Source of the DNA: a virus
Direction: 5' to 3' (one strand)
Length of the DNA: 46,943 nucleotides
Virus record (IMG/VR): IMGVR_UViG_3300008448_000157
Coordinates: 1 to 46,943 of that record
Numbering within the stretch: position 1 is the stretch's first letter; the number at the start of each line of letters is the position of its first letter. This document shows positions 12,960 through 45,983 of this stretch, piece after piece. The notes under the pieces are model-generated. The model saw only the letters and a program-made list of their open reading frames with translations. It was not told the DNA's origin and ran no database searches. The position numbers and the translations under genes are program-made.

Positions 12960-12972
12960 AAAATATAATAGT

Positions 12973-14513: not shown

Positions 14514-15588
14514 AAAGCTAGAGCACGATAAGCAGATCTCACGCTCCGTTGTTACTAGCCTGGAAAGCCAGAAACTGATAGGGGCTAGGAACTTTATTAA
14601 GTCGTTGCTAGAGTTCCGACGCTCTCGTAAGCTTTTCGACACCTATATCTCAGGTGTGCGTGAGGCTATGAAGTACAATGGATCAAATAAGATTTACGTT
14701 GAGTATCGTCTTGACGGTACGGTGACCGGACGCCTATCTAATGCGGGCTACGAGGCGGGTGGGAACCGTATGGGGATCTCATTTCATACTCTGCCCCGTG
14801 AATCCAAGTTTAATATCCGTGATTATGTTGTGGCTCCCAAGGGCTACAAGTTCATCACTGCGGATATGAAGAGCATGGAACTAAGAGTCCTTGCTCACCT
14901 AGCCAAAGAGAAGAACATGGCTAAGGCTTTTCATGACCGAGTAGATCTCCATACCTATTCCGCTGCCATGACGTTTGGTAAGAAGATGGAAAAGGTAACC
15001 AAGGAGGAGCGTCAGATTGCCAAGGCTGTTAGCTTCTTGACGGTGTACGGAGGAACCGAGAAGACACTTGCCATGAAGCAAGGCATCAGCTTCAAGAAGG
15101 CCAAGGGCATCATCGACGGATGGATGGCTGCGTTCCCTGGTGTCCCAAGATACATGGAACTTGTTGATCGGTTTATCACAACCAACAAGTATGCCTACAC
15201 GATCTTCGGTCGTAGACGCAATCTACCTAACGCAGGCTCAGAGGCGAAATATATCCGGCAGGAGGCATTCCGCCAAGGACTAAACTTTACAGTGCAATCC
15301 TCAGCTAGCGATACTCTTGTCTGCTGTATGCTTGGTCTTCATAATGAACTTAAGAAGCGTAAGCTAGGATCCAAGATTGTAGCTACCGTACACGACAGCA
15401 TTGAATTGATAGCTCCAGAGAGCGAGGTGGATGAGACCGTCTCATTGCTCAACTACCATATGACCAGCTATCCATATATCAAGGAGAACTTTGGTATCAC
15501 GTTCTCAGTTCCCCTTGAGATTGAGGTTGTGGTAGGAGACTCGTTCGGCTCAGGTGAGGAATACCACCTCAGCAGTCCCACTTCCTGA
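14500..15588 (+). CDS. Family A DNA polymerase, palm/fingers domain (last part of split polymerase)
   Basis: 362 aa with all polymerase motifs: the thumb-end motif DGTVTGRLSN, motif A as ADMKSMELR (D122, E127), the O-helix RQIAKAVSFLTVYG (R171, K175, F179, Y183) and motif C as HDS (298-300). Motif A normally reads DYSQIELR, so the Tyr is replaced by Met and the Gln-Ile by Ser-Met. It overlaps the preceding frame by 14 nt, shifted in phase. T4 relatives normally use a family B polymerase, so this is a replisome substitution. Its 3' end overlaps a minus-strand gene by 20 nt. Confidence 0.93.
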   Translation: MNRFEKLEHDKQISRSVVTSLESQKLIGARNFIKSLLEFRRSRKLFDTYISGVREAMKYNGSNKIYVEYRLDGTVTGRLSNAGYEAGGNRMGISFHTLPRESKFNIRDYVVAPKGYKFITADMKSMELRVLAHLAKEKNMAKAFHDRVDLHTYSAAMTFGKKMEKVTKEERQIAKAVSFLTVYGGTEKTLAMKQGISFKKAKGIIDGWMAAFPGVPRYMELVDRFITTNKYAYTIFGRRRNLPNAGSEAKYIRQEAFRQGLNFTVQSSASDTLVCCMLGLHNELKKRKLGSKIVATVHDSIELIAPESEVDETVSLLNYHMTSYPYIKENFGITFSVPLEIEVVVGDSFGSGEEYHLSSPTS

Positions 15589-26040: not shown

Positions 26041-26075
26041 TTTATATTACGAATCATTTAACTATAATGATTCGT
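26041..26075 (+). promoter_or_regulatory. Promoter of glycan island with TATAAT 7 nt before the start
   Basis: TATAAT (26063-26068) ends 7 nt before the ATG at 26076, with a weak TTTATA -35 at 26041-26046 (16-nt spacer). No Shine-Dalgarno. This would give a leaderless or nearly leaderless message. It directly follows the terminator. Confidence 0.6.
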
Positions 26076-27266
26076 ATGTCAGACAAACTAAAAATATTAG
26101 TATTTCACCCCAATACAGGCGGATGTGCATATTACAGAAGCCTAATGCCCTACCATAAATTACTTGAACTTTATCCAGATAAAGTAGAAATTAGGTTTGA
26201 TGATAATCCACTTAAATTAAATTTAAAAACTGGCAAGTTTGATTATCCAGGTGCAGAGCTTGATGAGGCTCCTGAATGCATAAAGTGGGCGCACGTTGTA
26301 TTGATTAATAACATAAGTAACTTTGGGGGAGGTTATACAGCTAGAGTTCAGGGTCTAGCATTAAAAGCTAAGAAGTTTGTCCACTTCGACACAGATGATC
26401 TCCTGACCGAGCTTTACGAAGAACATCATCTTATAGATGTGTACAAAAATCAAGGCTTGAGTGATCTAACAAAGCACCTGTACCAGAACTCTCACCTAGT
26501 AACGGTCACTCAGATAAAGTTTGCGGAAAGAATAAAGCCATTCTGTCGTAATATTTTAGCTGTAGTAAAGAACGCTATTGACTACAACTTACCTTGCTGG
26601 AATCATCAGAAAACTAAATCAAAGGCAGTTAGAGTTGGATGGGCAGGGGGTATTCATCACAACCCAGACGTTAAAGTATTCTCGTCTGTGCCTCATCTAG
26701 TTAATCAGAAGGTCGGAAGAGAAAACGTATTCTGGGATTTTTACGGGATGCCACCTCCACCACAGAATGAGAAAGAGAAAGAGGATTGGCAGAATAAAGT
26801 ATGGGACAAGTACAAGGCTGAACTGTTAAAAGGTTTTAAGGGTCAGCGTAACTGGAATACTCATTATGCTGTAGGGCCACATGAATATGGCGTGTTCTAT
26901 TCAAACATGGATATAGCTATAGCTCCTTTGAAGATGAATACATTCAACGACTCCAAGTCAGATATCAAGGTAGCTGAGGCAGGCAGATACAAAGTTCCTC
27001 TAATAGCGTCGAACGTAGGCTGCTACAGCGACACCATAGTCAATGGTAAGACCGGATATCTCCTCGACCCAGATGCACCTAAAACTGAATGGGTGAGAAT
27101 CTTATCTAAGGTCGCAACGGATCACAAGTTACGGCAGGAGATGGGCGAGAACTTGCACGCCATAACAGAGGAACTGTTTAACATAAACAAAGTAGTTAAG
27201 TACCGTTTAGATGTTTATGAGCAGTGCTTTAAGGCTTTTGGAATGGATCCAAGGAGTAAACAATGA
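26076..27266 (+). CDS. Glycosyltransferase, GT4-like
   Basis: 396 aa with a GT-B fold layout: N-terminal Rossmann half starting KILVFHPNTGGCAYYR, and a C-terminal half with VRVGWAGGIHHNPD, then SNMDIAIAPLK and DIKVAEAGRYKVPLIASNVG followed by NGKTGYLLDPD, the sugar-nucleotide binding region of GT4 enzymes. It probably adds a sugar to a growing glycan; donor and acceptor are unknown. ATG 26076 is preferred to 26067 because it fits the TATAAT spacing; both are in frame. Base composition here is still like the genome core, unlike the AT-rich genes downstream. Confidence 0.82.
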   Translation: MSDKLKILVFHPNTGGCAYYRSLMPYHKLLELYPDKVEIRFDDNPLKLNLKTGKFDYPGAELDEAPECIKWAHVVLINNISNFGGGYTARVQGLALKAKKFVHFDTDDLLTELYEEHHLIDVYKNQGLSDLTKHLYQNSHLVTVTQIKFAERIKPFCRNILAVVKNAIDYNLPCWNHQKTKSKAVRVGWAGGIHHNPDVKVFSSVPHLVNQKVGRENVFWDFYGMPPPPQNEKEKEDWQNKVWDKYKAELLKGFKGQRNWNTHYAVGPHEYGVFYSNMDIAIAPLKMNTFNDSKSDIKVAEAGRYKVPLIASNVGCYSDTIVNGKTGYLLDPDAPKTEWVRILSKVATDHKLRQEMGENLHAITEELFNINKVVKYRLDVYEQCFKAFGMDPRSKQ

Positions 27267-28051
27267 TTAAAATATTAACAGGTTATTCAAATGTTGGGGG
27301 ATCGACAACAGCGTTAGCTGCTTTGTGCAACCTATTTAATGATAATAAAATGCCATGTGAACTTTACGGACCCACAGATTGGGTTAAAAGTAAACTAAAC
27401 GGTAATTACTACAAACCATTAAATTCAGCACAATTTAATAAAGAAGATACTGTAATTTATCACTTTTTAGGCGTAACCCAGCGATTAGAGGTTAAAAAGT
27501 TAATTTTGTCATGCCATGAAACAAATGTTTTCCCAATTAAAGAAGTTAAACCAGCATATGATGCTCTTCATTTTGTTTCTAAATTTCAAAAAGACTGGCA
27601 AGGGGTTGACGGTGTAGTTATTCCGAATGTAATTACAAAGTACAAAAAATCACAAAAAAGAACTACTAATAAAGTAGCAGGGATAGTAGGAAGTATTGAC
27701 CCTCATAAACAAACTCATTTATCTATAAAAAGAGCTTTGGAAGATAAGAACATATCAAAAATAGAGTTGTGGGGGCAAATAACAACTTTTGAATATTTTT
27801 GGAATGAAGTATATCCTTTATTAAATGAAAATATTTCTTATCACGGAGCTTCAAAAGATATGCAGAAAGTATATGACAGATTAGACGTTGTATTTTCTTC
27901 ATCGCTTCGTGAGTGTCTACCAATGATTCAAGCTGAGTGCCATTTAGCTGGGGTAGAATTCCGAGGACTTCCAGAGAATACTCGCTCACTAGAAGATTAC
28001 ATTTTTGATGATCAGGAGATCTTAAATAAATGGAAAGAGTTATTGTCTTAA
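27263..28051 (+). CDS. Glycosyltransferase-like protein, GT-B fold
   Basis: 262 aa. The start KILTGYSNVGGSTTALAAL is the glycine-rich loop of GT4-type enzymes. The middle has VAGIVGSIDPHKQTHLSIKR, and RLDVVFSSSLRECLPMIQAE near residue 210-229 is the donor-site E-x7-E-like region. It is shorter than usual for GT-B enzymes. It overlaps its upstream neighbour by ATGA and the next gene by 22 nt. It is strongly AT-rich, unlike the replication genes. Confidence 0.7.
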   Translation: MIKILTGYSNVGGSTTALAALCNLFNDNKMPCELYGPTDWVKSKLNGNYYKPLNSAQFNKEDTVIYHFLGVTQRLEVKKLILSCHETNVFPIKEVKPAYDALHFVSKFQKDWQGVDGVVIPNVITKYKKSQKRTTNKVAGIVGSIDPHKQTHLSIKRALEDKNISKIELWGQITTFEYFWNEVYPLLNENISYHGASKDMQKVYDRLDVVFSSSLRECLPMIQAECHLAGVEFRGLPENTRSLEDYIFDDQEILNKWKELLS

Positions 28052-28746
28052 CTACTATTTACAATTGCGATAAGTATTTATCAAAGTGCCTAGAAAGTAT
28101 AAAAAATCAAACTTATACAAACTGGGTATGTTATTTACTAAATGATTTATCTACAGATAATTCTAAGCAAATAGCCGAAGAGTATTGCTCTTCGGATTCA
28201 AGATTTGTACTGATTAATAATGATAAAAAGTATTATCAACCTGGGAACTATGATCAAATATTGAGATCAGACTTAGCTCAAAACGAAGATATCATAATTG
28301 AAGTAGATGGTGACGATTGGCTAGCGACTAAGGAAGCTTTTCAAAAAGTAATAAATGAACATCGAAAAGGATATTTGATCACTCATGGTAGTTTTAAATA
28401 TTCTGATGGTAGGCTAGGATTCTCTAAACCTTTAACAGTCAATCAACTTAGAACATCTATAGCTAATGCGACTCATTTACGAAGCTGGAGAGCCAAGCTT
28501 TGGAAGGCTATTAATAAAGAAGATCTTTTTGTGAATGGTTGGTACGCGGAGACAGCCGGGGATGTCTTTTTCATGCTCCCTATGCTTGAAATGGCAGGGG
28601 ATAATAAAATTATTCACATGAAGGATATTCTTTATATTTATAATGAAACAAATCCTATAAATGATCACAAAGTTAATATCTTAAAACAATTAAGATATGC
28701 TTCTTTAGGAAGATCATATAATTCATACAAAAAAATCTATAATTAA
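28030..28746 (+). CDS. Glycosyltransferase, GT2 family
   Basis: 238 aa, GT-A fold. VIVLTTIYNCDKYLSKCLES then TYTNWVCYLLNDLSTDNS is the GT2 N-terminal domain, and EVDGDDWL (about residues 92-99) carries the DxD-type metal site. Such enzymes transfer sugars from nucleotide-sugar donors; the specific sugar cannot be told. It starts within the preceding gene. Confidence 0.85.
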   Translation: MERVIVLTTIYNCDKYLSKCLESIKNQTYTNWVCYLLNDLSTDNSKQIAEEYCSSDSRFVLINNDKKYYQPGNYDQILRSDLAQNEDIIIEVDGDDWLATKEAFQKVINEHRKGYLITHGSFKYSDGRLGFSKPLTVNQLRTSIANATHLRSWRAKLWKAINKEDLFVNGWYAETAGDVFFMLPMLEMAGDNKIIHMKDILYIYNETNPINDHKVNILKQLRYASLGRSYNSYKKIYN

Positions 28747-28748
28747 AA

Positions 28749-29489
28749 ATGATTTCATCGTTTATACAGGGTGGCCTTGGTAATCAATTATTTCAGATTG
28801 CTGCTGGAGCTTCGTTAGCTAAAGATTTATCAACAGATTTTTTTTTGAATGACGGGCAACATTTTTTACCATTTCAAGGCAGTAGAGTAGAAACATATAA
28901 AGATAACATATTAAAAAACATAAAATTTAAAAATTTAAATAATCAAATTTTTGATTCTATTTATCATTACGAAGATTTAAAATACTTAGAAATACCAAAA
29001 AAAGATAATTTGGTTTTAGTTGGTTACTTTCAATCAGAAAAATATTTTTTACATAATGAAAAGTATATAACTTCTTTATTTAATCTAAATTTTATAGATT
29101 TACCTAAAAAATCTGTTTCTATTCATATTAGAAGAGGGGACTATTTAAATAATCCAGATGTACATCCTGCGCTCTCTGCTGATTATTACTATAAAGCATT
29201 AGAAGTCATAAATGATTATTCAAACATTTATGTTTTAACAGACTCAGATCTTCCAAAAAATTTTAATATAAAAAATATGCAAATTATAAAACATGGGAAA
29301 GACTATGATGACCTAGCTTTTATGGCTAGTTGTGACAATAATATAATTGCTAATTCTACTTTTAGTTGGTGGGCAGCATACCTTAATAGAAACAAAAACA
29401 AAAAAATTGTTGCTCCTAAGAATTGGTTTGGGCCAAAAGGCCCAAAAAATTGGGAAGATATTTATTGCAAAGATTGGGAGGTAATATGA
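28749..29489 (+). CDS. Alpha-1,2-fucosyltransferase, GT11
   Basis: 246 aa with GT11 motifs: IQGGLGNQLFQIAAG at the start, SIHIRRGDYL in the middle (GDP-fucose binding), and NSTFSWWAAYL near the C-terminus. It would move fucose from GDP-fucose onto a galactose-type acceptor. GDP-fucose can be made by the two enzymes encoded 5 kb downstream. Very AT-rich. The stop overlaps the next ATG (ATGA). Confidence 0.9.
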   Translation: MISSFIQGGLGNQLFQIAAGASLAKDLSTDFFLNDGQHFLPFQGSRVETYKDNILKNIKFKNLNNQIFDSIYHYEDLKYLEIPKKDNLVLVGYFQSEKYFLHNEKYITSLFNLNFIDLPKKSVSIHIRRGDYLNNPDVHPALSADYYYKALEVINDYSNIYVLTDSDLPKNFNIKNMQIIKHGKDYDDLAFMASCDNNIIANSTFSWWAAYLNRNKNKKIVAPKNWFGPKGPKNWEDIYCKDWEVI

Positions 29490-30796
29490 ATTTTTTTTCA
29501 GTGGCGATCCCAGCGTATGAAATGCATGGCAAAGGATCTGATTTTTTAGAATTTAGTTTCTCTAAACTTGAGTTTCAGTCTTTTAAAGATTTTGAAGTAG
29601 TAGTCTCTGATCATTCTTTAAATAATGATATAAAATTACTTTGTGAAAGATGGAAAGATAAATTAAATATAAAATATGTTCTAAATACAGAAAACAGAGG
29701 CAACTCTTCCGCAAATTTAAACAATGCAATCAAGCATTGTTCTGGATCTTGGATAAAAATTTTATTTCAAGATGATTTTCTTTATTGTGAAAATTCACTT
29801 AATACAATTTATGAATCAATAAAAGATTCAGATTTTTGGGTTGTTAATGGAAGTATACACTCTACTGATCAATTAAACTTTTTTAATAAATTTACTCCAA
29901 GTTGGAGTGATAACCTACATTTGGGAATTAATACAATAAGTTCTCCTAGTGTTGTTTGTTTTAAAAATTTAAAAAACAATATAATTTTTGACTCAAGTTT
30001 AATATGGATGATGGATATTGATTATTATTTAAGAATGAATGATAGATTTGGGAATCCTAAGATTATAACTAGCACTATAACTGTCAACAGGCTGTGGGAA
30101 AACCAACTTTCAAATACGATTACTCAGGAAACAAAGAAAAAAGAAACTGATATTGTGACTTATAAAAATGAAATAAGAAAAAATTTAGAAACTGTTTTCA
30201 ATAATTTAATTAATAAAAATTTACCAAATGAACTTTTGTTTGGATTGGGTATTGTTGACATTAATGAACATTTACAAACTTTAAAATCCTTAGCGTCGGA
30301 GTGTACTTTAGTTACAGAGTTAGGGACAAGATTTGCCATATCTACGATGGCTTTGCTAATGGGAAGACCCTCTAAAGTTATTTCTGTTGATCTTAATTAT
30401 CATTTTTTTAAACCTCATGAGAAAAGAATTTTAGATTTTGCAAAAGCGTGCGGTGTAGATTTCTCATTTATTGAAGCGGACGATTTGGCTATTGAACTAG
30501 AGAATACTGATTTATTATTTATAGATACATTACACACTTACGATCAGTTGACAAAAGAACTTGAAAAGCATTCTAGTAAAGTTAATAAGTACATAGTTTT
30601 GCATGACACGGAAACTTTTAAAAATGTTGATGAAGCTTTTTATCAAAATGGTAAAGTTTCTACAGAAGTAAAAAAAGGGGATAAACAAGGCTTATGGCCT
30701 GCTGTAGAATATTTTTTAAATTGTAATTTAAATTGGGGGGTTTATCGGCATTATTCAAACAACAACGGACTAACAATTTTAAAAAGAAAAAAATGA
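29486..30796 (+). CDS. Fusion of GT2-type glycosyltransferase and SAM-type methyltransferase-like domain
   Basis: 436 aa. Residues 1-230 are GT2-like (SVAIPAYEMHGKG, FEVVVSDHS, FQDDFLY as metal site). From about 250, a Rossmann methyltransferase-type domain follows: VTELGTRFAISTMALLMGRP (SAM loop), VISVDLN, LLFIDTLHTYDQLTKELEKH and YIVLHDTETF, as in Methyltransf_24/cephalosporin-hydroxylase-like proteins. One chain could add a sugar and methylate it. ATG 29486 (ATGA overlap) is preferred to an upstream codon at 29423. Confidence 0.78.
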   Translation: MNFFSVAIPAYEMHGKGSDFLEFSFSKLEFQSFKDFEVVVSDHSLNNDIKLLCERWKDKLNIKYVLNTENRGNSSANLNNAIKHCSGSWIKILFQDDFLYCENSLNTIYESIKDSDFWVVNGSIHSTDQLNFFNKFTPSWSDNLHLGINTISSPSVVCFKNLKNNIIFDSSLIWMMDIDYYLRMNDRFGNPKIITSTITVNRLWENQLSNTITQETKKKETDIVTYKNEIRKNLETVFNNLINKNLPNELLFGLGIVDINEHLQTLKSLASECTLVTELGTRFAISTMALLMGRPSKVISVDLNYHFFKPHEKRILDFAKACGVDFSFIEADDLAIELENTDLLFIDTLHTYDQLTKELEKHSSKVNKYIVLHDTETFKNVDEAFYQNGKVSTEVKKGDKQGLWPAVEYFLNCNLNWGVYRHYSNNNGLTILKRKK

Positions 30797-31458
30797 TAAA
30801 TTTAAATCAAGTAACTCTAGCATTAATGACTTCTGTAAATTTAGAAAGATCTATTAAAGCAATTGAATACAGTACTAAAAATATAAATTTTAAACAAGTT
30901 AAATTATTTACAGATAAAAGTATAAATCATAAAACAATAGAGATTGTTCCTGTGCCTAAGATGTCATCAACTGATGATTACAGTTACAATGTAATATATG
31001 AATTGCCAAAACATATAACAACTGACTATGTTTTAATAATACAAGAGGATGGATTCATTATAAATCCTAATCTTTGGCAAAATGAATTTTTAAATTATGA
31101 CTATATTGGAGCACCATTTCCTTTGCCTAGAGACCATTTCTCTTACAGAGATGCAAAGAGCAATATATTCAGAGTTGGAAATGGTGGATTTTCATTAAGA
31201 AGTAAAAAATTATTAAATATTCCAATTAAATTAAATTTACCTTGGAAGTCTTTTCATGGATTTTACAATGAAGATGGTTTTATTTGTGCAATGAATAGAC
31301 ATATTTATGAAGACAATGGGTGTGTTTTTGCGCCTTTGGATATTGCAATTAAATTTTCTTTTGAACACTCAATTGAAAATAACATTAATGTTAAAACCTT
31401 TGGTTTTCACGGAAAACATAATTTTGCTTATATGAGTTTGTTAGATGATAATAAATGA
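30793..31458 (+). CDS. DUF5672-like putative glycosyltransferase
   Basis: 221 aa. YVLIIQEDGFIINPNLW with YDYIGAPFPL, GNGGFSLRSKKL and FYNEDGFICAMNR are the hallmark segments of the DUF5672 group, a GT-A-like family with EDG as probable metal site. The acceptor is unknown. It overlaps the preceding gene (ATGA) and the next one by 14 nt. AT-rich. Confidence 0.8.
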   Translation: MINLNQVTLALMTSVNLERSIKAIEYSTKNINFKQVKLFTDKSINHKTIEIVPVPKMSSTDDYSYNVIYELPKHITTDYVLIIQEDGFIINPNLWQNEFLNYDYIGAPFPLPRDHFSYRDAKSNIFRVGNGGFSLRSKKLLNIPIKLNLPWKSFHGFYNEDGFICAMNRHIYEDNGCVFAPLDIAIKFSFEHSIENNINVKTFGFHGKHNFAYMSLLDDNK

Positions 31459-32326
31459 AATAAAAAAAGGCCAAGGACTTGGTAATCAGTTATTTTGTTA
31501 TGTATCAACAAGATGTATAGCAAAAGACAATGGGTATGATTTTGGATTTATGGGCACAGAATTTTTAGGAGACGTAAGATATAACTCTGAAGGTTTATAT
31601 TTTATGAACTTAGACATGGGTAAGCCACCAAAAGAAGTTTGTAGTACCTATACGGAACATTCCACCAGAGTAAAGTTTAACACTTGCTACCATGATATGA
31701 TCCATGGATGTGATGTTAGAAGTTACGATAAAGAGTTACATAATGTAAAAGACAATACTTTGATAGATGGTATTATGCAAGATCAAAAATATTTTTATCA
31801 TCATATTAAAGATATAAAAAATTGGTTAAAATTAAAAACTGAATATGATTCTTATGAATTTTACAAAGATAATTTATGCATACTAAATTTTAGAGGCGGG
31901 GAATACACGAATCACCCCGAGTTATTTCTTTCTAGAAATTATTGGGTTAATGCTATGAATAATATGTTGAAATTAAATCCAAATATGGTATTTAAAGTGA
32001 TAACAGATGATGTAACTTCAGCAAAAAGAATGCTTCCAGAGCTAGAATGTTTTCATTTTGATATTGCGAAAGATTACGCATCAATAAAAAATTCTAAGTA
32101 TGTGATATTATCTAATTCAACATTCGCTTGCTTTCCAGTTTTTACAAGTGAAACTATAGAGTGGGTTATAGCACCAAAATACTGGTCTAGACATAATTTA
32201 TCTAACGGGTACTGGGCAACTGAACAAAATCTATATCAAGGCTGGATGTGGCAGGATAGAGAAGGCGAGCTTTATACTTATGATCAATGTGTTGAAGAGC
32301 TTAAGAATTATAACCAGTTTATATAA
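31445..32326 (+). CDS. Second GT11-like fucosyltransferase
   Basis: 293 aa. QGLGNQLFCYVSTR at the N-terminus, LNFRGGEYTNHPELFLS in the middle (compare HxRRGDY in standard GT11) and LSNSTFACFPVFTSE near the end follow the GT11 order. The HIRRGDY motif is changed to NFRGGEY, so donor handling may differ. With the gene at 28749 it makes two fucosyltransferase-type enzymes of different sequence in one cluster. A 113-nt gap follows. Confidence 0.78.
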   Translation: MIINEIKKGQGLGNQLFCYVSTRCIAKDNGYDFGFMGTEFLGDVRYNSEGLYFMNLDMGKPPKEVCSTYTEHSTRVKFNTCYHDMIHGCDVRSYDKELHNVKDNTLIDGIMQDQKYFYHHIKDIKNWLKLKTEYDSYEFYKDNLCILNFRGGEYTNHPELFLSRNYWVNAMNNMLKLNPNMVFKVITDDVTSAKRMLPELECFHFDIAKDYASIKNSKYVILSNSTFACFPVFTSETIEWVIAPKYWSRHNLSNGYWATEQNLYQGWMWQDREGELYTYDQCVEELKNYNQFI

Positions 32327-32439
32327 CTTCTCGCTATAATTAATAAATGGAATAATGTTATGAGAAGATCATTAATAGAGATATGATGATTATTTAATAA
32401 TCATTACTCATAAGATCAACGAGCTTAAGTAAAAATTCA
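32327..32439 (+). promoter_or_regulatory. Intergenic gap inside glycan island: TATAAT box and AT-rich hairpin
   Basis: TATAAT (32335-32340) sits in an AT-rich gap. A perfect 9-bp inverted repeat with a 1-nt loop (32386-32394 with 32396-32404) follows. Several ATGs (32347, 32355, 32360) open frames of 2 to 8 codons only. It likely provides a fresh promoter for the second half of the island. Confidence 0.45.
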
Positions 32440-33264
32440 ATGAGAAAAATATACGATTGTTTTTTGTTTTACAATGAACTTGATTTATTAGATCTGAGGT
32501 TTAAAATTCTTGATGATGTGGTTGATTTTTTTGTAATAGCAGAATCAAATAAAACTTTTTCTAATCAAGATAAAGAATTGATCTTTGAAAAGAATAAAAA
32601 CAGATATTCAAAATTTTTACATAAAATTATTCATGTAAAAATTTTAGATAATCCTAATGAATTTTTAAATTATGACAATAGGGTTGACCGAGAAGCCATA
32701 ATGTCAAAAAAATCTGGGATATTTCATCCTCATGAGCATCAGTGGGGGCGAGAGACCTATCAAAGGGAGTGTATTGCGCGGGGTTTGGTAGGTTGTAAGG
32801 ACGATGATTTTATATTGATATCTGATGTTGATGAGATACCAAATCCAAAACTATTACTCTCCTTGGAGTTAAATAAAAATTATTGTTTCGAACAGAGGAT
32901 GTTTTACTACTACATTAATTGTTTGAAGCAGGAAGCCTGGGCGGGGACGAAGGCAGTTCCCTATAGTTTATTAAAAAATAATCCTGTAAATTTTATAAGA
33001 CAAAATAAGTTTACGGAAATTACTTTACACGAAGGCGGATGGCACTTTTCATTTTTAGGGGATGAAACTTTTATAAAGAATAAAATTAAATCTTATTCTC
33101 ACCAAGAATTTAATAATGATTTTATTTTAAATTCTATAAAATCTAATATAGATGCTTGTAACGATCCGTTTTTTAGAGGAAAATTAATGGTTGTCCCATT
33201 GGATGGATCATTCCCAGACGAGGTTCGTAGAAACTTAAGCAGCTATAAGCACTGGATAAAATGA
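32440..33264 (+). CDS. GT17-like N-acetylglucosaminyltransferase family protein
   Basis: 274 aa. IYDCFLFYNELDLLDLRF, VDFFVIAESNKTFS, FILISDVDEIPNP and GGWHFSFLG give the full motif order of GT17 enzymes (beta-1,4-mannosyl-glycoprotein N-acetylglucosaminyltransferase type), with DVD as metal site. Such genes are frequent in marine phage glycan clusters. The donor sugar is by family only. No Shine-Dalgarno is visible. The stop overlaps the next ATG (ATGA). Confidence 0.85.
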   Translation: MRKIYDCFLFYNELDLLDLRFKILDDVVDFFVIAESNKTFSNQDKELIFEKNKNRYSKFLHKIIHVKILDNPNEFLNYDNRVDREAIMSKKSGIFHPHEHQWGRETYQRECIARGLVGCKDDDFILISDVDEIPNPKLLLSLELNKNYCFEQRMFYYYINCLKQEAWAGTKAVPYSLLKNNPVNFIRQNKFTEITLHEGGWHFSFLGDETFIKNKIKSYSHQEFNNDFILNSIKSNIDACNDPFFRGKLMVVPLDGSFPDEVRRNLSSYKHWIK

Positions 33265-34196
33265 AGATTTATACAATATGCTTTAACAGACCTGAATTTA
33301 TTGAATTACAATTAAAATCAGCAATAAAATTTGTAGAAGATTTTGAGGAATTGATTGTATTAAATAATGCTGTTGATAATTTAGAAAACTACAAAAAGAT
33401 AAACGAAACTTGCCAAGCATTAAATATTAAATGTTACCAAATTCCATTTAAATATGCAGAATATTACAAAGTAAGTAATAGTCACTCCGCAGCATTCTCG
33501 ATGAATTATTTGTTTGAGGAAGTCCTCCAGGATCATGAGAACTGTTGTATAATTCACTCTGATATGTTCTTTATAAAGAGAGTAAACTTACAAGAGTTAC
33601 TATCAGATAATGATATAATTTATTACCCACAATATAGACAGAACTTTGGAATCCATTATTGTTATGATGGATTCTGTATTTTAAATTTAGTAAAAAACAA
33701 AAGTCTGAAAACTATGAAGTGGAATAATGGAGTATTGATCTCAAACACAGAACTTACAGATGCTGGGGGTGCGACTCACTTCTTCTTTGAACAAAATAAA
33801 TCTCTAAAGAAAAATTTTGTTGAAGAGTATTCAATCTACAACTCTTCAATAAATGAATGTGATTTAATAATAAATGGAAATATAAATTACAAAATAAATT
33901 TTGAGAATAATACTATTCAACATACAGGAGGGAATAAATATAAAAACAAGTCATTCCCTTATGAAGATAGCGATGATAATTATTACTCAAATTTAATTTT
34001 AAAATGTAAAAAATTACTAGATAAAATTTTACCATATAATTTTCCAAATCCTATTCATTTTGGGCTTTTAAAGAATATGATGGAGGATGATTATTTTATG
34101 GCACACTACAAAACCGGTTCAAACTATTTAAATTTTTGTAATACTGACTATAATGCTAAAAAATTTCATAGTCTAAAAAACTTTTTGGGAATCTGA
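33261..34196 (+). CDS. Putative glycosyltransferase, GT-A-like
   Basis: 311 aa. IYTICFNRPEFIELQLKSA and EELIVLNNAVD fit the first strands of a GT-A domain, and CIIHSDMFFIKR carries a DxD-like HSDMFF site. AGGATHFFFEQN later is a possible acceptor region. No named family can be assigned. It lies between the GT17 gene and GDP-fucose synthase and is strongly AT-rich, so it clearly belongs to the same cluster. Confidence 0.65.
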   Translation: MKIYTICFNRPEFIELQLKSAIKFVEDFEELIVLNNAVDNLENYKKINETCQALNIKCYQIPFKYAEYYKVSNSHSAAFSMNYLFEEVLQDHENCCIIHSDMFFIKRVNLQELLSDNDIIYYPQYRQNFGIHYCYDGFCILNLVKNKSLKTMKWNNGVLISNTELTDAGGATHFFFEQNKSLKKNFVEEYSIYNSSINECDLIINGNINYKINFENNTIQHTGGNKYKNKSFPYEDSDDNYYSNLILKCKKLLDKILPYNFPNPIHFGLLKNMMEDDYFMAHYKTGSNYLNFCNTDYNAKKFHSLKNFLGI

Positions 34197-34200
34197 ATAT

Positions 34201-35142
34201 ATGGAAAAAATTTTAATTACTGGTAGTTCTGGGTTGGTTGGTAATGCTGTAAGGAAATTACAAAAAAATTTTTTGATACCCAATAGGAATGAGTTGGATT
34301 TGTTAGATAGAAAGAAAGTTTTTGATTACTTAAACAATAACAAAGTTGATTCAGTTATCCATGTCGCTGCTAGGGTAGGAGGAGTTTCGGCAAATACTAA
34401 ATTTGTCGCTGATTTCTACTCTGAAAACATCCAAATGAATACCAACATAATTGATGCTTGTGTATTCTATAAAATAAAAAAATTGTTATGCTGCCTTTCT
34501 ACCTGTGTCTACCCAGATGAAAATAAAGTTACTTGGCCTATAACCGAAGATCAGTTACACAAAGGCGAGCCTCATGCATCGAATTTTGGATATGCATTTG
34601 CGAAAAGAATGGTGGACGTTCACCTTAGAGCAGTTAGGCAACAGTATGGTTTGAACTATATTTCTGTTATTCCAAATAATCTATATGGAGAACACGATAA
34701 TTTTGATCTAAATAACAGCCACGTTCTTCCTGCTTTGATAAGAAAAATTTGGGAAGCTAAAATAAACAATAAACCTTATTTTGAAGTTTGGGGGGATGGT
34801 GAAGTGTATAGAGAATTTACTTATTCAAAAGATATAGCGAATGCAATGATTTTTTGTTTAGATAATTATAAAGATGCATCCCCAATAAATATTGGAAATA
34901 ACGAAGAGTATTTACTAAAGGATGTAATATCAATTCTTAAGAAGCATTTAGACTATGAGGGAGAGATAATTTTCGATACCACAAAGCCGAAAGGGCAAGT
35001 AAGAAAACCAAGCTCCAACAAGAAAATACTTGAAATAGGTTGGAATAAGTCTTGGTATACACCAATAGATGTTGGGTTAAAGAAAACTTGTGATTGGTTT
35101 AAGATTAATTATCCAAAGGTAAGAGGAGTTGAACTAACATGA
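34201..35142 (+). CDS. fcl: GDP-L-fucose synthase
   Basis: A 313-aa short-chain dehydrogenase. NADP-binding loop GSSGLVG (8-14), VIHVAARVGG, catalytic set LSTCVYP (S100, C102) and YAFAK (Y131, K135), plus NLYGEHDNFD and HVLPALI, which are typical of GDP-fucose synthase. It turns GDP-4-keto-6-deoxymannose into GDP-L-fucose. The stop overlaps the gmd start (ATGA), giving the full two-step route side by side. Confidence 0.93.
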   Translation: MEKILITGSSGLVGNAVRKLQKNFLIPNRNELDLLDRKKVFDYLNNNKVDSVIHVAARVGGVSANTKFVADFYSENIQMNTNIIDACVFYKIKKLLCCLSTCVYPDENKVTWPITEDQLHKGEPHASNFGYAFAKRMVDVHLRAVRQQYGLNYISVIPNNLYGEHDNFDLNNSHVLPALIRKIWEAKINNKPYFEVWGDGEVYREFTYSKDIANAMIFCLDNYKDASPINIGNNEEYLLKDVISILKKHLDYEGEIIFDTTKPKGQVRKPSSNKKILEIGWNKSWYTPIDVGLKKTCDWFKINYPKVRGVELT

Positions 35143-36119
35143 AGACTGCTATAATTACAGGAATATCTGGACAAGACGGATCATATCTCGCAGAGTTACT
35201 TTTGACGAAAGGTTACAAGGTGGTTGGAGTTCTTAGAAGACATTCTTCACCTGAGCACCAAACAAATCGTTTGGATGAGTATGGAGTAAAAGATAAAATA
35301 ACTTTAGTGTATGGTGATGTCACTGATCTCCCATCTTTGATTCGTATATTCTCTGAGCACAAACCTGATGAGATATACAATCTTGCTGCTCAAGCCCATG
35401 TAAAGATTAGTTTTGATCAACCTTCTTATACAACAGACTCCATTGTATTTGGAACCTTAAATGTATTAGAAGCTGCTAAAGCTATTTGCCCAAATGCAAG
35501 AATATATCTGGCAGGATCGTCAGAGATGTACGGTAATGAATACGACCCTGACGGATACAGAAGAGAGACTACAAAGATGATTCCAGTCAGTCCGTATGGG
35601 TGTGCAAAGCTATATGGATTCAACCTAGGTAAAGTTTATAGAGAATCTTATGGTATGTTCATCTGCAATGGCATATTGTTTAATCATGAATCCCCAAGAA
35701 GAGGACTGAACTTCGTAACTAATAAAGTTGTGGAGGGTGCAGTTAAAATATCTAAGGGCTTAATTAAAAACTTGGCACTTGGAAATCTTAAAGCGACAAG
35801 AGATTGGGGTCATGCAAAAGATTATGTAAGAGCAATGTGGCTTATGCTACAACAAGACAAACCAGATGATTATGTTTGCTCGACAGGTAAATCAAAATCT
35901 ATTGAAGAATTATGCCAAATTGTTTTCAATAAATTAAATTTAAATTACAAAGATTTTATTGTCGTAGATCCAAAATATTTTAGACCTTATGAACTAGACG
36001 ATCTCAAGGGAGATTGCACTAAGGCTGAAATGCAGCTAGGTTGGGTCAGAGAGTACACTTTTGAGTTTATGATCGAAGAAATGTTGAAATATTGGCAAAA
36101 TAAGTTAAATATTAATTAA
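35139..36119 (+). CDS. gmd: GDP-mannose 4,6-dehydratase
   Basis: 326 aa. GISGQDGSYLAELLL (8-22) NADP loop, NLAAQAHVKISFDQP, the SSEMYG catalytic site (127-132), YGCAK (Y153, K157) and ILFNHESPRRG are textbook Gmd motifs. It makes GDP-4-keto-6-deoxymannose, the substrate of the preceding gene. Slightly less AT-rich than the transferases, and closest in style to cellular Gmd. It ends the glycan island. Confidence 0.95.
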   Translation: MKTAIITGISGQDGSYLAELLLTKGYKVVGVLRRHSSPEHQTNRLDEYGVKDKITLVYGDVTDLPSLIRIFSEHKPDEIYNLAAQAHVKISFDQPSYTTDSIVFGTLNVLEAAKAICPNARIYLAGSSEMYGNEYDPDGYRRETTKMIPVSPYGCAKLYGFNLGKVYRESYGMFICNGILFNHESPRRGLNFVTNKVVEGAVKISKGLIKNLALGNLKATRDWGHAKDYVRAMWLMLQQDKPDDYVCSTGKSKSIEELCQIVFNKLNLNYKDFIVVDPKYFRPYELDDLKGDCTKAEMQLGWVREYTFEFMIEEMLKYWQNKLNIN

Positions 36120-38033: not shown

Positions 38034-38343
38034 TAAGTCTTCTTTGAGATTTCAGCTAGGAGCGGTAATTAAATGCGGAAAAATGAAGGTTTCCGCCTAT
38101 AATATTAACAAGACGCACAGAACATTTGGCTGCGGACGTTACCAAACGCTTCACGCAGAAAGCTACTGTATCCTAAAGGCAATCAAACGTGGTATTGATC
38201 TTAGCTCAAGTGTTCTATATGTTTTCCGTATGCACGGTCTTAACTCGCGTCCATGCAAAGATTGCCAAACTCTCATTAAGAGATTTAGAATCAAAAAGGT
38301 AATTTATACTAATGTTAAATCAGGAGATTCTGGGGAAGCTTAA
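38008..38343 (+). CDS. Cytidine/deoxycytidylate deaminase-like protein
   Basis: 111 aa. Zinc and catalytic motifs LHAES (H49, A50, E51) and RPCKDC (C83, C86) define the CDA fold. It probably deaminates a free cytidine or dCMP to feed ThyX with dUMP, but it is shorter than T4 dCMP deaminase and the substrate is not certain. ATG 38008 is chosen; the open frame extends to 37951 over the previous gene. It overlaps UvsX by 32 nt. Confidence 0.75.
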   Translation: MLLAAREANKSSLRFQLGAVIKCGKMKVSAYNINKTHRTFGCGRYQTLHAESYCILKAIKRGIDLSSSVLYVFRMHGLNSRPCKDCQTLIKRFRIKKVIYTNVKSGDSGEA

Positions 38344-39295
38344 GAACCCGCAGACTTTAGAGAAAGCGGATACCAGCTTTGGATTCATTTCCACAGGCTG
38401 CTTGGCTCTCAACAAGATCATCAGTGGTAACTACTCTGATGGTATCCCTGTCGGTGCTATTACTCAACTTAGAGGTGATAGCTCGACTGGCAAGACTCTG
38501 TTTCTCACTTCAATCTTAATTGAAGCGCAGAAGAAAGGGTATTTCACTAAGCTCCTTGACGCAGAGAATGCGTACAACGAGGAGTTTGCTCGTATGCTAG
38601 GGCTTGATCCTAGTCAGCTTCTCTATTCCAGCCCAGAGTGCCTAGAAGATGCATTCGCTGATATTGAGGCTACGATTGAGTCTATCCGTGAGCACGATCA
38701 GGATACGCCTATTGTTATCGGTATTGACAGCCTTGCGGTGCTTGGAACCAGGAAGGAACTAAACACTGAGAACTACGAGCATACGCCTGCGGATGGAGCG
38801 CAGAGAGCGATGGTTACAGGAATGTGCTTCCGTCGTATCAATCCAATCCTACGCAAGAACAAGGTAGCTCTTATCGTAATCAATCAGATCCGATCTAAGA
38901 TCGGTATCATTTACGGTAATCCAGAAACCAATGCCTCAGGTGGCAGAAGCCTGGAATATTACCTTGGTGTAGACCTGAAGACTTTCCGCCGGGAGAAGCT
39001 GAAAGACGATAACGACGCTCCAAGAGGTATTCGTGGCGAGATTGAGTGTACGAAGAATAAGTACTCAATCCCATACAAGAAGTGTGAGTTTGAGCTATTA
39101 TTTAATAAGGGATTGAGCAAATTCCATGGGCTATTGGATGAGTTCGTGGCTGATAATACGATCAGCAAGTCTCCTAACGGGCGTTGCCAATTAGGTGAGA
39201 CTAAGTTCACATCCAAGGATTTTATTAATTTAATTTATGATAAAAATAATCGAGACTTCGATATAATAAGATCGAAGATTGGTTTTACTGACTAA
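38312..39295 (+). CDS. uvsX: Recombinase UvsX/RecA-like
   Basis: 327 aa. Walker A GDSSTGKT (55-62), TKLLDAENAYN, Walker B IVIGIDSLAVL, and NQIRSKIG with SGGRSLEYYLGVDLK. It forms filaments on single-stranded DNA and makes joint molecules, helped by the UvsY-like and gp32 proteins. It is shorter than T4 UvsX. It overlaps the deaminase, so repair and nucleotide genes are again coupled. Confidence 0.93.
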   Translation: MLNQEILGKLKNPQTLEKADTSFGFISTGCLALNKIISGNYSDGIPVGAITQLRGDSSTGKTLFLTSILIEAQKKGYFTKLLDAENAYNEEFARMLGLDPSQLLYSSPECLEDAFADIEATIESIREHDQDTPIVIGIDSLAVLGTRKELNTENYEHTPADGAQRAMVTGMCFRRINPILRKNKVALIVINQIRSKIGIIYGNPETNASGGRSLEYYLGVDLKTFRREKLKDDNDAPRGIRGEIECTKNKYSIPYKKCEFELLFNKGLSKFHGLLDEFVADNTISKSPNGRCQLGETKFTSKDFINLIYDKNNRDFDIIRSKIGFTD

Positions 39296-39722: not shown

Positions 39723-39906
39723 AGAAAAAACTCTGGATCGCCAGAGAAAGAAGCTAAATAAGAATAGAAAGCCTCCGAAACCTCCAAAGTTTCGAGACTT
39801 TAATATCGACCCGATTGTAGATGAAGATTTAGGAGAGTCCAATGCCGAAGAAATACATTCTGAGCAAACAATACATAAGCAAGGACCACCTAAATCGACT
39901 GGTTAA
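39703..39906 (+). CDS. Small basic Pro/Lys-rich protein
   Basis: 67 aa starting MGKTFRREKTLDRQRKK then NRKPPKPPKFRD, a style common to small T4-like marine-phage proteins. Overlaps the next gene by 65 nt, so only the first 45 residues are outside it. Possibly an RNA- or DNA-binding peptide. Confidence 0.5.
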   Translation: MGKTFRREKTLDRQRKKLNKNRKPPKPPKFRDFNIDPIVDEDLGESNAEEIHSEQTIHKQGPPKSTG

Positions 39907-40204
39907 GCAGGTAATTGATAATACCAAGACCGATAGAGAGCAGGCACTAAATTTATTCACCGATCTCCATGCTCGACTTGGCAGTGCTGAAACTAATTTA
40001 GTGTATGCCGAGATGGTTAAAACTGCGATACCTCTCCTGAAACAAGTTCAGGACGTTAATTCTACACTTTTAAAAGCTATGGATCTCATCCAGAACTTTC
40101 TTATCAAACATAATACAGGTAAGAGAGGCGCAAATGAGGCTGTGGATCTTTTTGAAGGCTTATCAAAGCTAACGGGAGTCGAAGATGGTAAAGAAGACGA
40201 TTAA
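39842..40204 (+). CDS. 120-aa helical protein, unknown
   Basis: A helical protein (QALNLFTDLHARLGSAETNL, AIPLLKQVQDVNSTLLKAMD). AGGAG lies 6-7 nt before the ATG. It overlaps the Clp-like gene by 20 nt and may be its partner or adaptor by position only. Confidence 0.65.
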   Translation: MPKKYILSKQYISKDHLNRLVKQVIDNTKTDREQALNLFTDLHARLGSAETNLVYAEMVKTAIPLLKQVQDVNSTLLKAMDLIQNFLIKHNTGKRGANEAVDLFEGLSKLTGVEDGKEDD

Positions 40205-41606
40205 GAAGGGTACGGATAACTACTATCGGTCGCCATGTCCTGCGATTGATCAGATTCTTTTAATCAAGAAGTTGACCTCTGACGAGGCTTTAGGTCTTTA
40301 CAATCAACTCAAGACGATTGTTTCGACCCTTCCCCGTGAGGGAGCAATCATTGCATACATGAAGATCCTTATCAAGGAGCTTTTGTATGACCCAGACGTT
40401 CTTACTCCTTACTTGGACGAGGATACGCTGGTTGTGGTGCTGAAGGAAGTCTATGAATGCATCGTAGACATTTACATCTCTTTCAGGATTGAGGTTATCT
40501 GCTCAGACATCAATAACCTACAACCACTCAGCCCTTTTGATCCGATAAACGTCAAGGACTTTGATTATCTCAAGCCCCTTGACCCAGACCAAGAAGCCCC
40601 GCCAGCGGACAGTCTTGTGAGCGCACTAAACCAACGTACAGCGGCTACCCCCGCTAAGAAGCCTAAGAAGGCTTCAACCACTATGACCATGAAGGACATT
40701 AGTGGTATTGAGGCACACATCAAGAGGAGCGTCATTGGGCAAGATGAGGCTGTTGAGAAGCTAGTGCAGCGAATTAAGTTGATTGCTGTTGGCTTCGACA
40801 AGCGTGCTAACTTCTTCTTTGTTGGTCGTACAGGTGTCGGCAAGACTGAGCTTGCAAGATCATTTGGCAAGAAGTATTGTAATAACTTTGCAAAGATAAA
40901 CTGTGGTGAGTTTACCAACGGACATGAGGTAGCCAAGCTCATTGGTGCTCCCCCAGGATACATTGGGTCTAACCATAAATCCTTCTTTCAGGAGAAGGCT
41001 GAGGTTTCCAATCGCTGGGTATTTCTCTTTGACGAGGTAGAGAAGGCTCATGAGAAGCTGTATCACCTCTTGCTATCGCTCCTAGACGATGGGACGGTGA
41101 CAGACAGTAATGGGAATACTCTTGATTTTTCTAATAGTATTTTTATCTTTACCTCAAACCAGGGTATATCGGAGATCAAGGAAATCTCGGTAGGCTTTGG
41201 TGGCAAAGGGCACAACTCTGAAGCGGCAGCGGCTGTCATCAAGGCTTCCCTTGATAAGCAGTTCTCACCAGAGTTCCGTAATCGTATTGACGAGTTTATA
41301 TTCTTCAACGAGCTTACGACTGAGAACGTAAAGGATATCACGAAGCTCAATCTGAAGACTTACCCTGTGGCGCAAACGGAAGAACTGTTAGACTTCATTG
41401 TTTCTAAGGCTTACTCCAAGGAGTTTGGCGTTAGAGAAATCAAGCGGTTTATCAAGAATTCTGTTGCGCTTCCTGTGGCAGAGGCTATATTGGACAATCA
41501 ATTCCCTATTGACGGGAGCGGCAAGTACACCTTCACCATTAAGGATGGTAAGGCAGTTGTCGATAACGTCAAGAAGGTTCCCGTAAAAGCCGTAAACCAC
41601 AGATAA
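40185..41606 (+). CDS. Clp-type AAA+ ATPase with phage-specific N-terminal domain
   Basis: 473 aa. Residues 1-165 are a helical domain plus a Pro-rich linker not found in host Clp proteins. Residues 170-473 are one AAA+ module like the second module of ClpA/ClpC: Walker A GRTGVGKT (214-221), pore loop GYIG (258-261), Walker B VFLFDEVEKAH (279-289), sensor TSNQ (N325), Arg finger in SPEFRNRIDE and GVRE in sensor 2. SVGFGG (335-340) occupies the place of the ClpP-binding IGL/VGF loop of ClpA/ClpC. It may feed chosen proteins to host ClpP or act as an unfoldase alone. Confidence 0.9.
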   Translation: MVKKTIKKGTDNYYRSPCPAIDQILLIKKLTSDEALGLYNQLKTIVSTLPREGAIIAYMKILIKELLYDPDVLTPYLDEDTLVVVLKEVYECIVDIYISFRIEVICSDINNLQPLSPFDPINVKDFDYLKPLDPDQEAPPADSLVSALNQRTAATPAKKPKKASTTMTMKDISGIEAHIKRSVIGQDEAVEKLVQRIKLIAVGFDKRANFFFVGRTGVGKTELARSFGKKYCNNFAKINCGEFTNGHEVAKLIGAPPGYIGSNHKSFFQEKAEVSNRWVFLFDEVEKAHEKLYHLLLSLLDDGTVTDSNGNTLDFSNSIFIFTSNQGISEIKEISVGFGGKGHNSEAAAAVIKASLDKQFSPEFRNRIDEFIFFNELTTENVKDITKLNLKTYPVAQTEELLDFIVSKAYSKEFGVREIKRFIKNSVALPVAEAILDNQFPIDGSGKYTFTIKDGKAVVDNVKKVPVKAVNHR

Positions 41607-43000: not shown

Positions 43001-43579
43001 ATGTTAAATTTAACTTCAGACCAATGGGATCTGTACCACAAAAAGTATAATAAACTTATGTGGAAGATTGCCCATCGCATATCAGGAGATACGATGTTAG
43101 CCTCTTTGGAGGACAACTATTCGGATCTCTCTATCGCTGCCATAGAATCCATCAATGGCTTTCATAAGAAGACTGGTAAATCGTTCGATGAAATGATTAC
43201 CATGAAGCTCTTCGATCAATACACTAAGACTTGCTTGTGGACTGCCAAGGCAAGAAAAGGTATAAAGCTTACAGAGCGAATGCCATTTAGAAACAAGCAC
43301 GTTTCAATTGATGCACTGCGGGATGACCCAGATGTATCTTTTGATGTGCCAGATGCATCCGCATTAACGAGATATACAAGAGTAGAAGCAATGGATACCT
43401 ACAAGAGCTACGACTCTGGCGTTAAGAAGCTGGTGCGTGTTCTTTCAGAGAATCCAGAGATGATGACTGAGACGGGCAAGCTTAAGGTTAATCCAATAGC
43501 CAAGAAGATGAACCTGTCTATTGCAAAGGTTGAAAACCTTATCAAGATTATGGAGACTACAAATGACCCAAACAAATGA
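43001..43579 (+). CDS. Second sigma-factor-like protein
   Basis: 192 aa. YNKLMWKIAHRISGDTM, then SLEDNYSDLSIAAIESINGF and GKSFDEMI resemble sigma-70 region 2 (helix, DL-turn, core helix). Near the C-terminus NPIAKKMNLSIAKVENLIKI is a helix-turn-helix like region 4. It would be a polymerase-binding or DNA-reading factor apart from the gp55-like protein. It lacks clear -10 reading residues, so a sigma role is an inference. Its end overlaps the next gene by 17 nt. Confidence 0.55.
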   Translation: MLNLTSDQWDLYHKKYNKLMWKIAHRISGDTMLASLEDNYSDLSIAAIESINGFHKKTGKSFDEMITMKLFDQYTKTCLWTAKARKGIKLTERMPFRNKHVSIDALRDDPDVSFDVPDASALTRYTRVEAMDTYKSYDSGVKKLVRVLSENPEMMTETGKLKVNPIAKKMNLSIAKVENLIKIMETTNDPNK

Positions 43580-43832: not shown

Positions 43833-43947
43833 GCCGAGACCTGTAGACGAGCAGAAGTTTAATCACAACTTCGACAAAATATTCGGAGAGCTTAAATTAA
43901 AGGCTATTGCATCCGATAAGAAGCCAAAGAAGAAGGATAAAAAATGA
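43813..43947 (+). CDS. 44-aa basic peptide of a type common in T4-like marine phages
   Basis: A short frame reading MNGKGSKPRPVDEQKFNHNF then DKIFGELKLK and a Lys-rich tail (KKPKKKDKK). The NGKGxKxRP start and DxIFG step recur in tiny phage proteins of unknown role. It begins inside the preceding frame and its stop makes ATGA with the next gene, which supports its being real. Confidence 0.6.
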   Translation: MNGKGSKPRPVDEQKFNHNFDKIFGELKLKAIASDKKPKKKDKK

Positions 43948-45983
43948 ATATTAAACTGCAAAACCTTTCTACCCTGCATTCCCAAAGTAATTGGATCACT
44001 ATGGGAATCCCGCCTAAGACCTTTGTAGAATCAGGCGAAATGGATATTACAACTCAAGATGGGAGATCGTTTAGAGTTGTAAATGATGATTCTACGGAAC
44101 TCTTTGTAAGAGGAACTTTACAGCCAAACGAGACTTTAGAGCTAGACCTCTCTGAATTTGGAGGGCTTGATGCACCTGAGTTTCAATTCTCAACCTGGGT
44201 GACTGACGAGATACATAAAATTATCCCTCAGTTCATGCTAGACTTAGAAGATGGGACTACGCTACTTTCTGAGCCTATGGAGCTTTATCTTGGTGAAGAA
44301 CATCTCAGGCCAAGGAACTATATTGCCCCAGACAAGCAAAGCTCAGTAAGAAAGCGTTTTTATTTCATAACTGAAATCAAAGCTGCCCCAATGCATATTG
44401 AGGGTTGGATTGATATTTTTGATCGTCAGGAAGTTGTACCTATTATTATCCGTTGCTCATTCGGTGACGTAGGGAGCGAGAGGGTCCTCAACAAGAGATT
44501 TGGCTCTCTTAAGATGATTACTGGAGAGAAGGCTGTAATCGACTTCCGCAAACCAAAAGGACTGCGAGAGCCTGCTTATATTAATGGCAAGTGGGATACT
44601 GAGATTGTAAGCCCACGACTTTGGTGGAAGGCTAGAACCATTGAAGTATTCGGTGCATTGCTTTGTATGCCCCCCTATGAAAGCATTGGACAGGAAGTAG
44701 GTCTTCCTGGGTTTGTAGAAAAGATAACTAACCTTCTTGCTAGAGAAGAGGCTCCTGGCGTAGGCATTTACTCTAATTGGCATGGAAATTGGATGACTTG
44801 CAAATCAGCACCAGAAGCACCTGAGAACATGGCTCAGGCTATTGTAACAGCCAAAAATGCCTTCTACAGCAGAATTAATACTTTTGGTGACGAGTATGAT
44901 CAAAGAGCTTATGCACAGCCAAGAAACTCTGCTCAGACAGGGAATCAGCCAGACTTTGGAGTTGCGCGTGGTGAACTTGTAGTCACTGCTCATCAACCAT
45001 GGGCATTGTTTGATTATCGGTTTAGTGTTCAGGCTTGGATGCTACGCCCATATTCACACAAGGAAGCTAATGGTGATCCAGTAAAGGCTGCCAATCACCC
45101 TAACACCAAGCTATACAATCTTTCGATTGATACTAGATTTGGATCAGATTTCCTGGGATTCCCAAATCCAGTTCCCTACAGTGAATTCTGGACTGGCAGT
45201 GATGCACAGCACAGATCAGATAATTTATTGTATGCCATGTATGCTCTCACCAGAGATCCAAGCATCAAGGCTACGATTGATGATCTAATTCAATGCTCTT
45301 TGATGGAGATTAAAACTTATCAACAATATGGTCTACCGAACAGTATTGAATCCCCAAGAGGATGGGGTAGACCACTTCTCGCCATGGCTCATGCTTGCTC
45401 CATGGGATTCAATGATATTAGAGCGAACATGGTTGAGATGGCTGATGTGATGCATGATTGTGCCTCCATGAATAAGATTGTGCAGGACGATAAGCACACT
45501 GTCAGAACTCTTTCTAACAACGGATCCAAGTATGGATGGGTAGATGCCTCAGGTCGCCCGATCAGAGCCTTGGTATGCTGGGAAGAGGCTATAGGGGCTA
45601 TTGGACTATGGGCTACGTTCATGGTTACTGGCGATTATAAGTATCGTCAGACTGCACTTGAAATCGCTAGAACCATTGTACGCCACGCATTCTTTAAGAC
45701 TTCTGATGGGAAGTGGTATACCTGTTATGCTGTACGTTGGAATACAGATGATCCAGGCGTCCCACTACCAGATTCAAGCTACAGACTAACTGCTCGCCCA
45801 GAAGATAACAAGGATGTATTCGTATTCGGTATGCAGCAGTGGATGCTACCCTGTGTCGATATGGTTTATTTCTACGATGAGAAATCTGCCGAGGATAAGA
45901 CTATAATCAGCAAAGCTAAGGCTATCAAGGATTACTTTGGAGCACCAAAGACTTTTGATGACTCAGCTTGGCTTGCGATATGA
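43944..45983 (+). CDS. 679-aa protein, possible carbohydrate-binding/processing virion protein
   Basis: No family is certain. Residues 1-230 are strand-rich (SNWITMGIPPKTFVESGEMD, LFVRGTLQPNETLELDLSEF). From about 270 on the protein is Trp/Tyr/His-rich and helical, with repeated helix pairs (HRSDNLLYAMYALTRD, SIESPRGWGRPLLAMAHA, KYRQTALEIARTIVRHAFFK) as in (alpha/alpha) barrel sugar-acting enzymes. The layout, beta domains then helical toroid, recalls exo-rhamnogalacturonan-lyase-like (PcRGLX/YetA) proteins; that is a guess. It could be a surface protein that handles host polysaccharide. No signal peptide. Confidence 0.8.
   Translation: MNIKLQNLSTLHSQSNWITMGIPPKTFVESGEMDITTQDGRSFRVVNDDSTELFVRGTLQPNETLELDLSEFGGLDAPEFQFSTWVTDEIHKIIPQFMLDLEDGTTLLSEPMELYLGEEHLRPRNYIAPDKQSSVRKRFYFITEIKAAPMHIEGWIDIFDRQEVVPIIIRCSFGDVGSERVLNKRFGSLKMITGEKAVIDFRKPKGLREPAYINGKWDTEIVSPRLWWKARTIEVFGALLCMPPYESIGQEVGLPGFVEKITNLLAREEAPGVGIYSNWHGNWMTCKSAPEAPENMAQAIVTAKNAFYSRINTFGDEYDQRAYAQPRNSAQTGNQPDFGVARGELVVTAHQPWALFDYRFSVQAWMLRPYSHKEANGDPVKAANHPNTKLYNLSIDTRFGSDFLGFPNPVPYSEFWTGSDAQHRSDNLLYAMYALTRDPSIKATIDDLIQCSLMEIKTYQQYGLPNSIESPRGWGRPLLAMAHACSMGFNDIRANMVEMADVMHDCASMNKIVQDDKHTVRTLSNNGSKYGWVDASGRPIRALVCWEEAIGAIGLWATFMVTGDYKYRQTALEIARTIVRHAFFKTSDGKWYTCYAVRWNTDDPGVPLPDSSYRLTARPEDNKDVFVFGMQQWMLPCVDMVYFYDEKSAEDKTIISKAKAIKDYFGAPKTFDDSAWLAI

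Follow-up and report, generated by a model that had tools for sequence, protein, structure and literature searches.

The T4-like myovirus record of IMG/VR analysed here (46,943 bp in all, hereafter the window) encodes a single-module AAA+ ATPase which, to judge from its sequence, is quite probably a phage-specific, single-ring Clp unfoldase that docks on the ClpP peptidase of the host and delivers to it targets chosen by its own N-terminal domain (N-domain). The affiliation of the record is apparent from a gp21-type prohead protease, a gp23-type major head protein, a head-tail adaptor, and tail sheath and tube proteins, and it also carries genes for SbcCD, a ribonucleotide reductase, a DnaB-type helicase and UvsX. 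The features of the ATPase gene and of its immediate neighbors are collected in Table 1.

Table 1. Coordinates in the window of the phage ATPase gene, its domains and motifs, and neighboring genes.
Feature	Position	Strand	Remarks
UvsX/RecA recombinase gene	38312..39295	+	conserved neighbor
Overlapping upstream ORF	39842..40204	+	120 aa; candidate partner/adaptor
Single-module Clp/Hsp100-type AAA+ unfoldase gene	40185..41606	+	ATG start, 473 aa
Phage-specific N-domain	40224..40523	+	residues about 14-113; then variable linker to about residue 172
AAA+ large domain (AAA_2)	40800..41294	+	most like ClpA/ClpC D2
Walker A GRTGVGKT	40824..40847	+	residues 214-221
Pore-1 loop GYIG	40956..40967	+	residues 258-261
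Walker B FLFDE	41022..41036	+	residues 280-284
Docking-type loop motif SVGFGG	41187..41204	+	residues 335-340; V336 G337 F338 = 41190-41198
PEFRNRID with arginine finger	41268..41291	+	R367
D2-small-like C-terminal domain	41346..41507	+	sensor 2 = GVR, residues 415-417

The protein consists of a new N-domain followed by one AAA+ module. Residues 206-370 correspond to the Pfam domain AAA_2 (4.9e-36), which is matched once only in the whole record, and residues 388-441 to ClpB_D2-small; no D1 module is present. The closest relatives of solved structure are ClpC (8.9e-49) and ClpA, both through their second modules, and among NCBIfam models ClpA scores best (221 bits, as compared with 196 for ClpB). 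Because the first module is missing, the score remains far under the cut-off of 993 bits of the ClpA equivalog model TIGR02639, of which positions 429-720 of 734 are covered. These three kinds of matches agree with the preliminary description, in which the module was likened to the second module of ClpA/ClpC. The characteristic domains and motifs of a Clp/Hsp100 unfoldase can be recognized, namely AAA_2 and D2-small domains, Walker A and B motifs, sensor 1, arginine finger, sensor 2 and an aromatic pore loop.

The central piece of evidence is the tripeptide VGF, which had been proposed to form a ClpP-docking loop. In ClpA, the IGL/F motif of the second nucleotide-binding domain (NBD2) is needed for assembly with ClpP, ClpB and Hsp104 have no such motif, and grafting the IGL/F loop onto either of the latter enables delivery to ClpP (review, PMC5540906). 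Profile and MAFFT alignments place the VGF of the phage protein after sensor 1 (TSNQG) and ahead of PEFRNRID, within the insertion that separates the two. The loop was positioned by sequence alignment with ClpA, ClpB, ClpX and HslU of E. coli MG1655, and in the resulting columns V336-G337-F338 coincides with IGL of ClpA, IGF of ClpX and the GF motif of ClpC; ClpB has no motif at this column, and HslU is devoid of the whole loop. The possibility that VGF lies outside the docking loop, which would have been fatal to the proposal, is not borne out by these alignments. The pattern [LIV]-G-[FL] in the loop that follows sensor 1 and precedes the PEFxNRID segment, taken as the mark of a ClpP partner, is thus present. 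In bacterial controls drawn from GTDB genomes, [LIVM]GF is found in the loop of ClpA/ClpC-like proteins and not in that of ClpB-type proteins, with the exception of two ClpA/ClpC-like proteins with PGF or YGF and of one loop that could not be parsed. Since [LIVM]G[FLY] arises 4.2% of the time when the loop is shuffled at constant composition, a single sequence on its own is merely suggestive.

The family to which the protein belongs is more telling. A direct scan of IMG/VR with the ATPase as single query yielded no close relative; relatives were reached through a search with the major head protein, followed by a search with a family alignment of the ATPase. The ATPase was found in 5 of the 46 head-protein-derived records searched, including all three that exceed 100 kb, and the family alignment then retrieved about 80 related loci from IMG/VR, corresponding to 62 distinct sequences. 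All but one of the latter have [VLMI]G[FY] at the docking column (VGF in 32, LGF in 17, MGF in 8, IGF in 3 and VGY in 1). Among 39 representatives less than 85% identical to one another, the glycine is found in 38 and an aromatic F/Y residue in 39, with column entropies of 0.17 bits each at G and F, as compared with mostly 2-3.4 bits at neighboring loop columns. Likewise, mean pairwise identity reaches 95% for the GF pair, with values of 21% for the loop flanks, 33% for the N-domain and 59% for the whole module, and the motif follows the sensor-1 segment at a distance of 8-10 residues across the family. A fixed GF in an otherwise variable loop is the pattern that would be expected of selection on a docking tripeptide within a flexible loop. 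Thus, the assignment of SVGFGG to the docking loop stands, with a VGF that aligns with the ClpA IGL and ClpX IGF motifs and is strongly constrained in the family, and we strongly infer that the phage ATPase docks to ClpP. The sole exception in the family is the nearest relative of the window protein (L078:7986-9353, 56-58% identical), which has LSF in place of LGF or VGF.

In a tree of 54 modules, the single-module phage proteins make up one clade with a long stem (100/100), and the two-module Clps of jumbo phages are scattered outside it, among the ClpA, ClpC and ClpB proteins of bacteria. By these sequence comparisons, the single-module phage unfoldases form a distinct family, widespread in T4-like viruses. 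A scan of genome contigs yielded ordinary ClpA, ClpC and ClpB proteins; the few short ones among them seem to be fragments, broken or located at contig ends, and were not counted as single-module proteins.

Comparison with known systems sets the family apart. The D2 modules of bacterial ClpA and ClpC are closest to the phage module, with which they share the [LIV]G[FL] docking loop, the GYVG pore-1 loop and the D2-small domain, whereas the phage protein has neither D1 nor a recognizable Clp N-domain, belongs to its own 100/100 clade, and has a small domain that falls short of that of ClpA/ClpB by about 13 residues. It resembles ClpX in its single AAA+ ring architecture, accessory N-domain and IGF-type loop. 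In contrast, its module is of the ClpA-D2 type, with no match to ClpX at E 0.001 and none to the zinc domain, so that the defining traits of ClpX, an N-terminal zinc-binding domain and a ClpX-type module, are both missing from the window protein. The phage ATPase departs equally from ClpB/Hsp104, which are defined by two modules and the absence of a ClpP loop, and from HslU, defined by a long I-domain insertion in the AAA module and no GF loop. Jumbo phages have been reported to encode ClpA, ClpX, ClpS or ClpP (PMC7824862). Their ClpA/ClpC-like proteins (PHROG 4871; e.g., RaK2 ORF069, Vibrio phage 2.275.O) are similarly phage-encoded, and some have an IG- or VGF-type loop motif, but those examined, from RaK2, Vibrio 2.275.O and four huge uncultured phages, are two-module proteins of 648-769 aa that fall outside the single-module clade; according to their annotation, the Clp genes of qdvp001, P018-4 and SCTP-2, of about 2.2 kb, are also long enough for two complete modules. 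The ClpS adaptors and ClpP reported in jumbo phages (PMC7824862) resemble the present case in that an infecting phage would direct Clp proteolysis, but here a whole ATPase is supplied, and the small protein encoded upstream does not resemble ClpS in sequence. In a targeted search of the open-licence literature, we found no account of a single-module, ClpA-D2-type phage family, nor any phage unfoldase shown to use host ClpP. To our knowledge, viruses are known to exploit bacterial Clp proteolysis mostly by means of adaptors and inhibitors, or through Clp genes copied from cells.

The N-domain, of about 100 residues, is conserved in the family, with the consensus YRVVC..LN.VL.VK.L...EE..LY ... 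YK..IV..FL.D ... YPPF.LEFIC.DLN. No significant match to it was found in Pfam, PHROGs or 50,697 phage records, the PHROG matches being to scattered single members, down to 2.4e-4, and inconsistent. As far as these searches reach, the N-terminal part is phage-specific, as had been supposed; looked for in other phages, it recurs across the IMG/VR family alongside the AAA module and was only ever found fused to it (28 phage records). A relationship with Clp N-domains was not supported, as the best PDB profile match, to the ClpV N-domain (3zri), has an E value of 0.012 over the entire chain and of 0.099 over the best-matching stretch, and comparison with the N-domain of ClpA revealed no similarity; hhalign similarly found nothing in common with the T4 baseplate proteins gp26, gp51 and gp28. 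By analogy with Clp N-domains, the most likely role of this domain is the binding of substrates or adaptors.

An ORF located upstream (100-135 aa, generally about 111 aa) overlaps or abuts the start of the ATPase gene in 45 of 46 representative loci, the overlap being 8 nt in most of them and 20 nt in the window, and each of the 36 loci that extend far enough has uvsX upstream. In E. coli, the gene of the adaptor ClpS is directly upstream of clpA, and therefore an adaptor role for the product of the upstream ORF is an attractive guess; by that analogy, it might be an adaptor or a small partner of the ATPase. No match to the upstream protein was found in PHROGs or the PDB, and no relation between it and the N-domain was detected. 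Single-sequence comparisons, which leave room for distant kinship, revealed no similarity to ClpS and gave no support for a small terminase (T4 gp16, HTVC008M gp077). Downstream of the ATPase gene, a 192-aa ORF (43001-43579) is conserved in 15 loci; it has no NCBIfam match and may correspond to a T4 gp55-type late sigma factor.

Elsewhere in the window, the family B DNA polymerase (12937-15588) is divided into three consecutive ORFs that correspond to positions 480-785, 793-922 and 932-1237 of PHROG 17. Because the third piece is a frame of its own, of about 363-385 aa, in almost every related record in which it was matched, the split, at least as regards this piece, appears to be a property of the lineage rather than the result of faulty sequencing. 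A block of glycosyltransferase and nucleotide-sugar epimerase genes (26067-36119) is found between the replication genes and the dUTPase/UvsX genes, and two long ORFs, at 8895-11393 (832 aa) and 43944-45983 (679 aa), have no PHROG match.

How such a protein might work can be outlined from its conserved features. Walker A, Walker B, sensor 1, the PEFxNRID arginine finger and sensor 2 are conserved across the family, and the pore-1 loop is GYVG, GYIG or GFIG in 38 of the 39 representatives. With its ATPase and pore residues intact, the AAA+ module would assemble into a hexameric ring, through the pore of which proteins would be threaded at the expense of ATP. The position of the [VLMI]GF loops and the selection on them suggest that, on the distal face of the ring, they would dock in the hydrophobic pockets of host ClpP, and the N-domain, possibly together with the upstream ~111-aa protein, would pick the substrates. 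During infection, the hybrid protease made of phage ATPase and host ClpP would then degrade proteins selected by the phage, be they those of the host or its own. Candidate targets are host proteins, in the context of takeover or counter-defence, or phage proteins to be removed or remodelled around recombination, and both would fit the uvsX operon. The docking model assumes that the host has ClpP.

The main rival reading, to which we give a low probability, is that the protein is a ClpP-independent remodelling chaperone, akin to ClpB or ClpX, for recombination, replication or assembly complexes, and that GF is kept for structural reasons or for another partner. ClpX can remodel assemblies without ClpP, and the conserved neighborhood of the gene, with uvsX and the overlapping 111-aa ORF, would suit a chaperone, as would the proposal that jumbo-phage ClpA/ClpX aid virion assembly (PMC7824862). 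However, the motif is absent from ClpB, which works without a protease partner, and in the phage family G and F are fixed while the other loop positions vary freely. Less probable still is a decoy or plug that docks on ClpP to displace ClpX, ClpA or ClpC, sparing phage proteins with little delivery of substrates. The docking motif by itself would suffice for that, but the conserved Walker motifs, arginine finger, sensor 2 and aromatic pore loop would be superfluous in an inert scaffold or decoy, and their maintenance points to active threading.

Docking on a peptidase of the phage's own, either a divergent ClpP or the gp21-type prohead protease, appears the most improbable of all. The preliminary description had stated that no protease gene is nearby, which holds for ClpP (PF00574), found in none of 45 phage records with a model that was positive in 13 of 14 cellular genomes, but not for proteases at large, as the window carries the T4 gp21-type prohead protease gene at 462-1241. 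HslV/proteasome-type peptidases (PF00227) were similarly absent from 18 phage records. Since most phage records are fragments and none is known to be complete, the absence of ClpP is provisional, which leaves some room for an unrecognized phage peptidase; on the other hand, no gene of the ClpP or proteasome type was detected in the records searched, five of which are of 98-131 kb. We know of no gp21-type protease that docks Clp rings. That no phage ClpP was detected, together with the family-specific N-domain, fits the proposal that host ClpP is steered to targets chosen by the phage, which is thus supported by the sequence data. Rather than as an 'adaptor swap', the earlier notion, the arrangement is better described as the swap of a whole unfoldase, with its own motor and recognition domain and perhaps a small partner translated along with it.

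Taken as a whole, the family may well represent an undescribed, lineage-wide class of phage ClpP unfoldases that combine a single D2-type ring with a recognition domain of their own and a small, co-translated partner, and whose retargeting of host ClpP would be a routine part of the infection cycle of T4-like phages from the environment; we consider this broader proposition somewhat less secure than docking and delivery by the window protein, though still favored. The conserved GF loop makes a two-residue change enough for testing, and the LSF of L078 is a useful natural variant for ClpP binding. If true, viruses would here take over host protein disposal in an unusually direct manner, with only the hook for ClpP kept and the recognition end replaced. 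Such proteins would offer a compact, natural single-ring ClpP partner for targeted-degradation studies and a starting point for finding out which proteins these phages must have destroyed.
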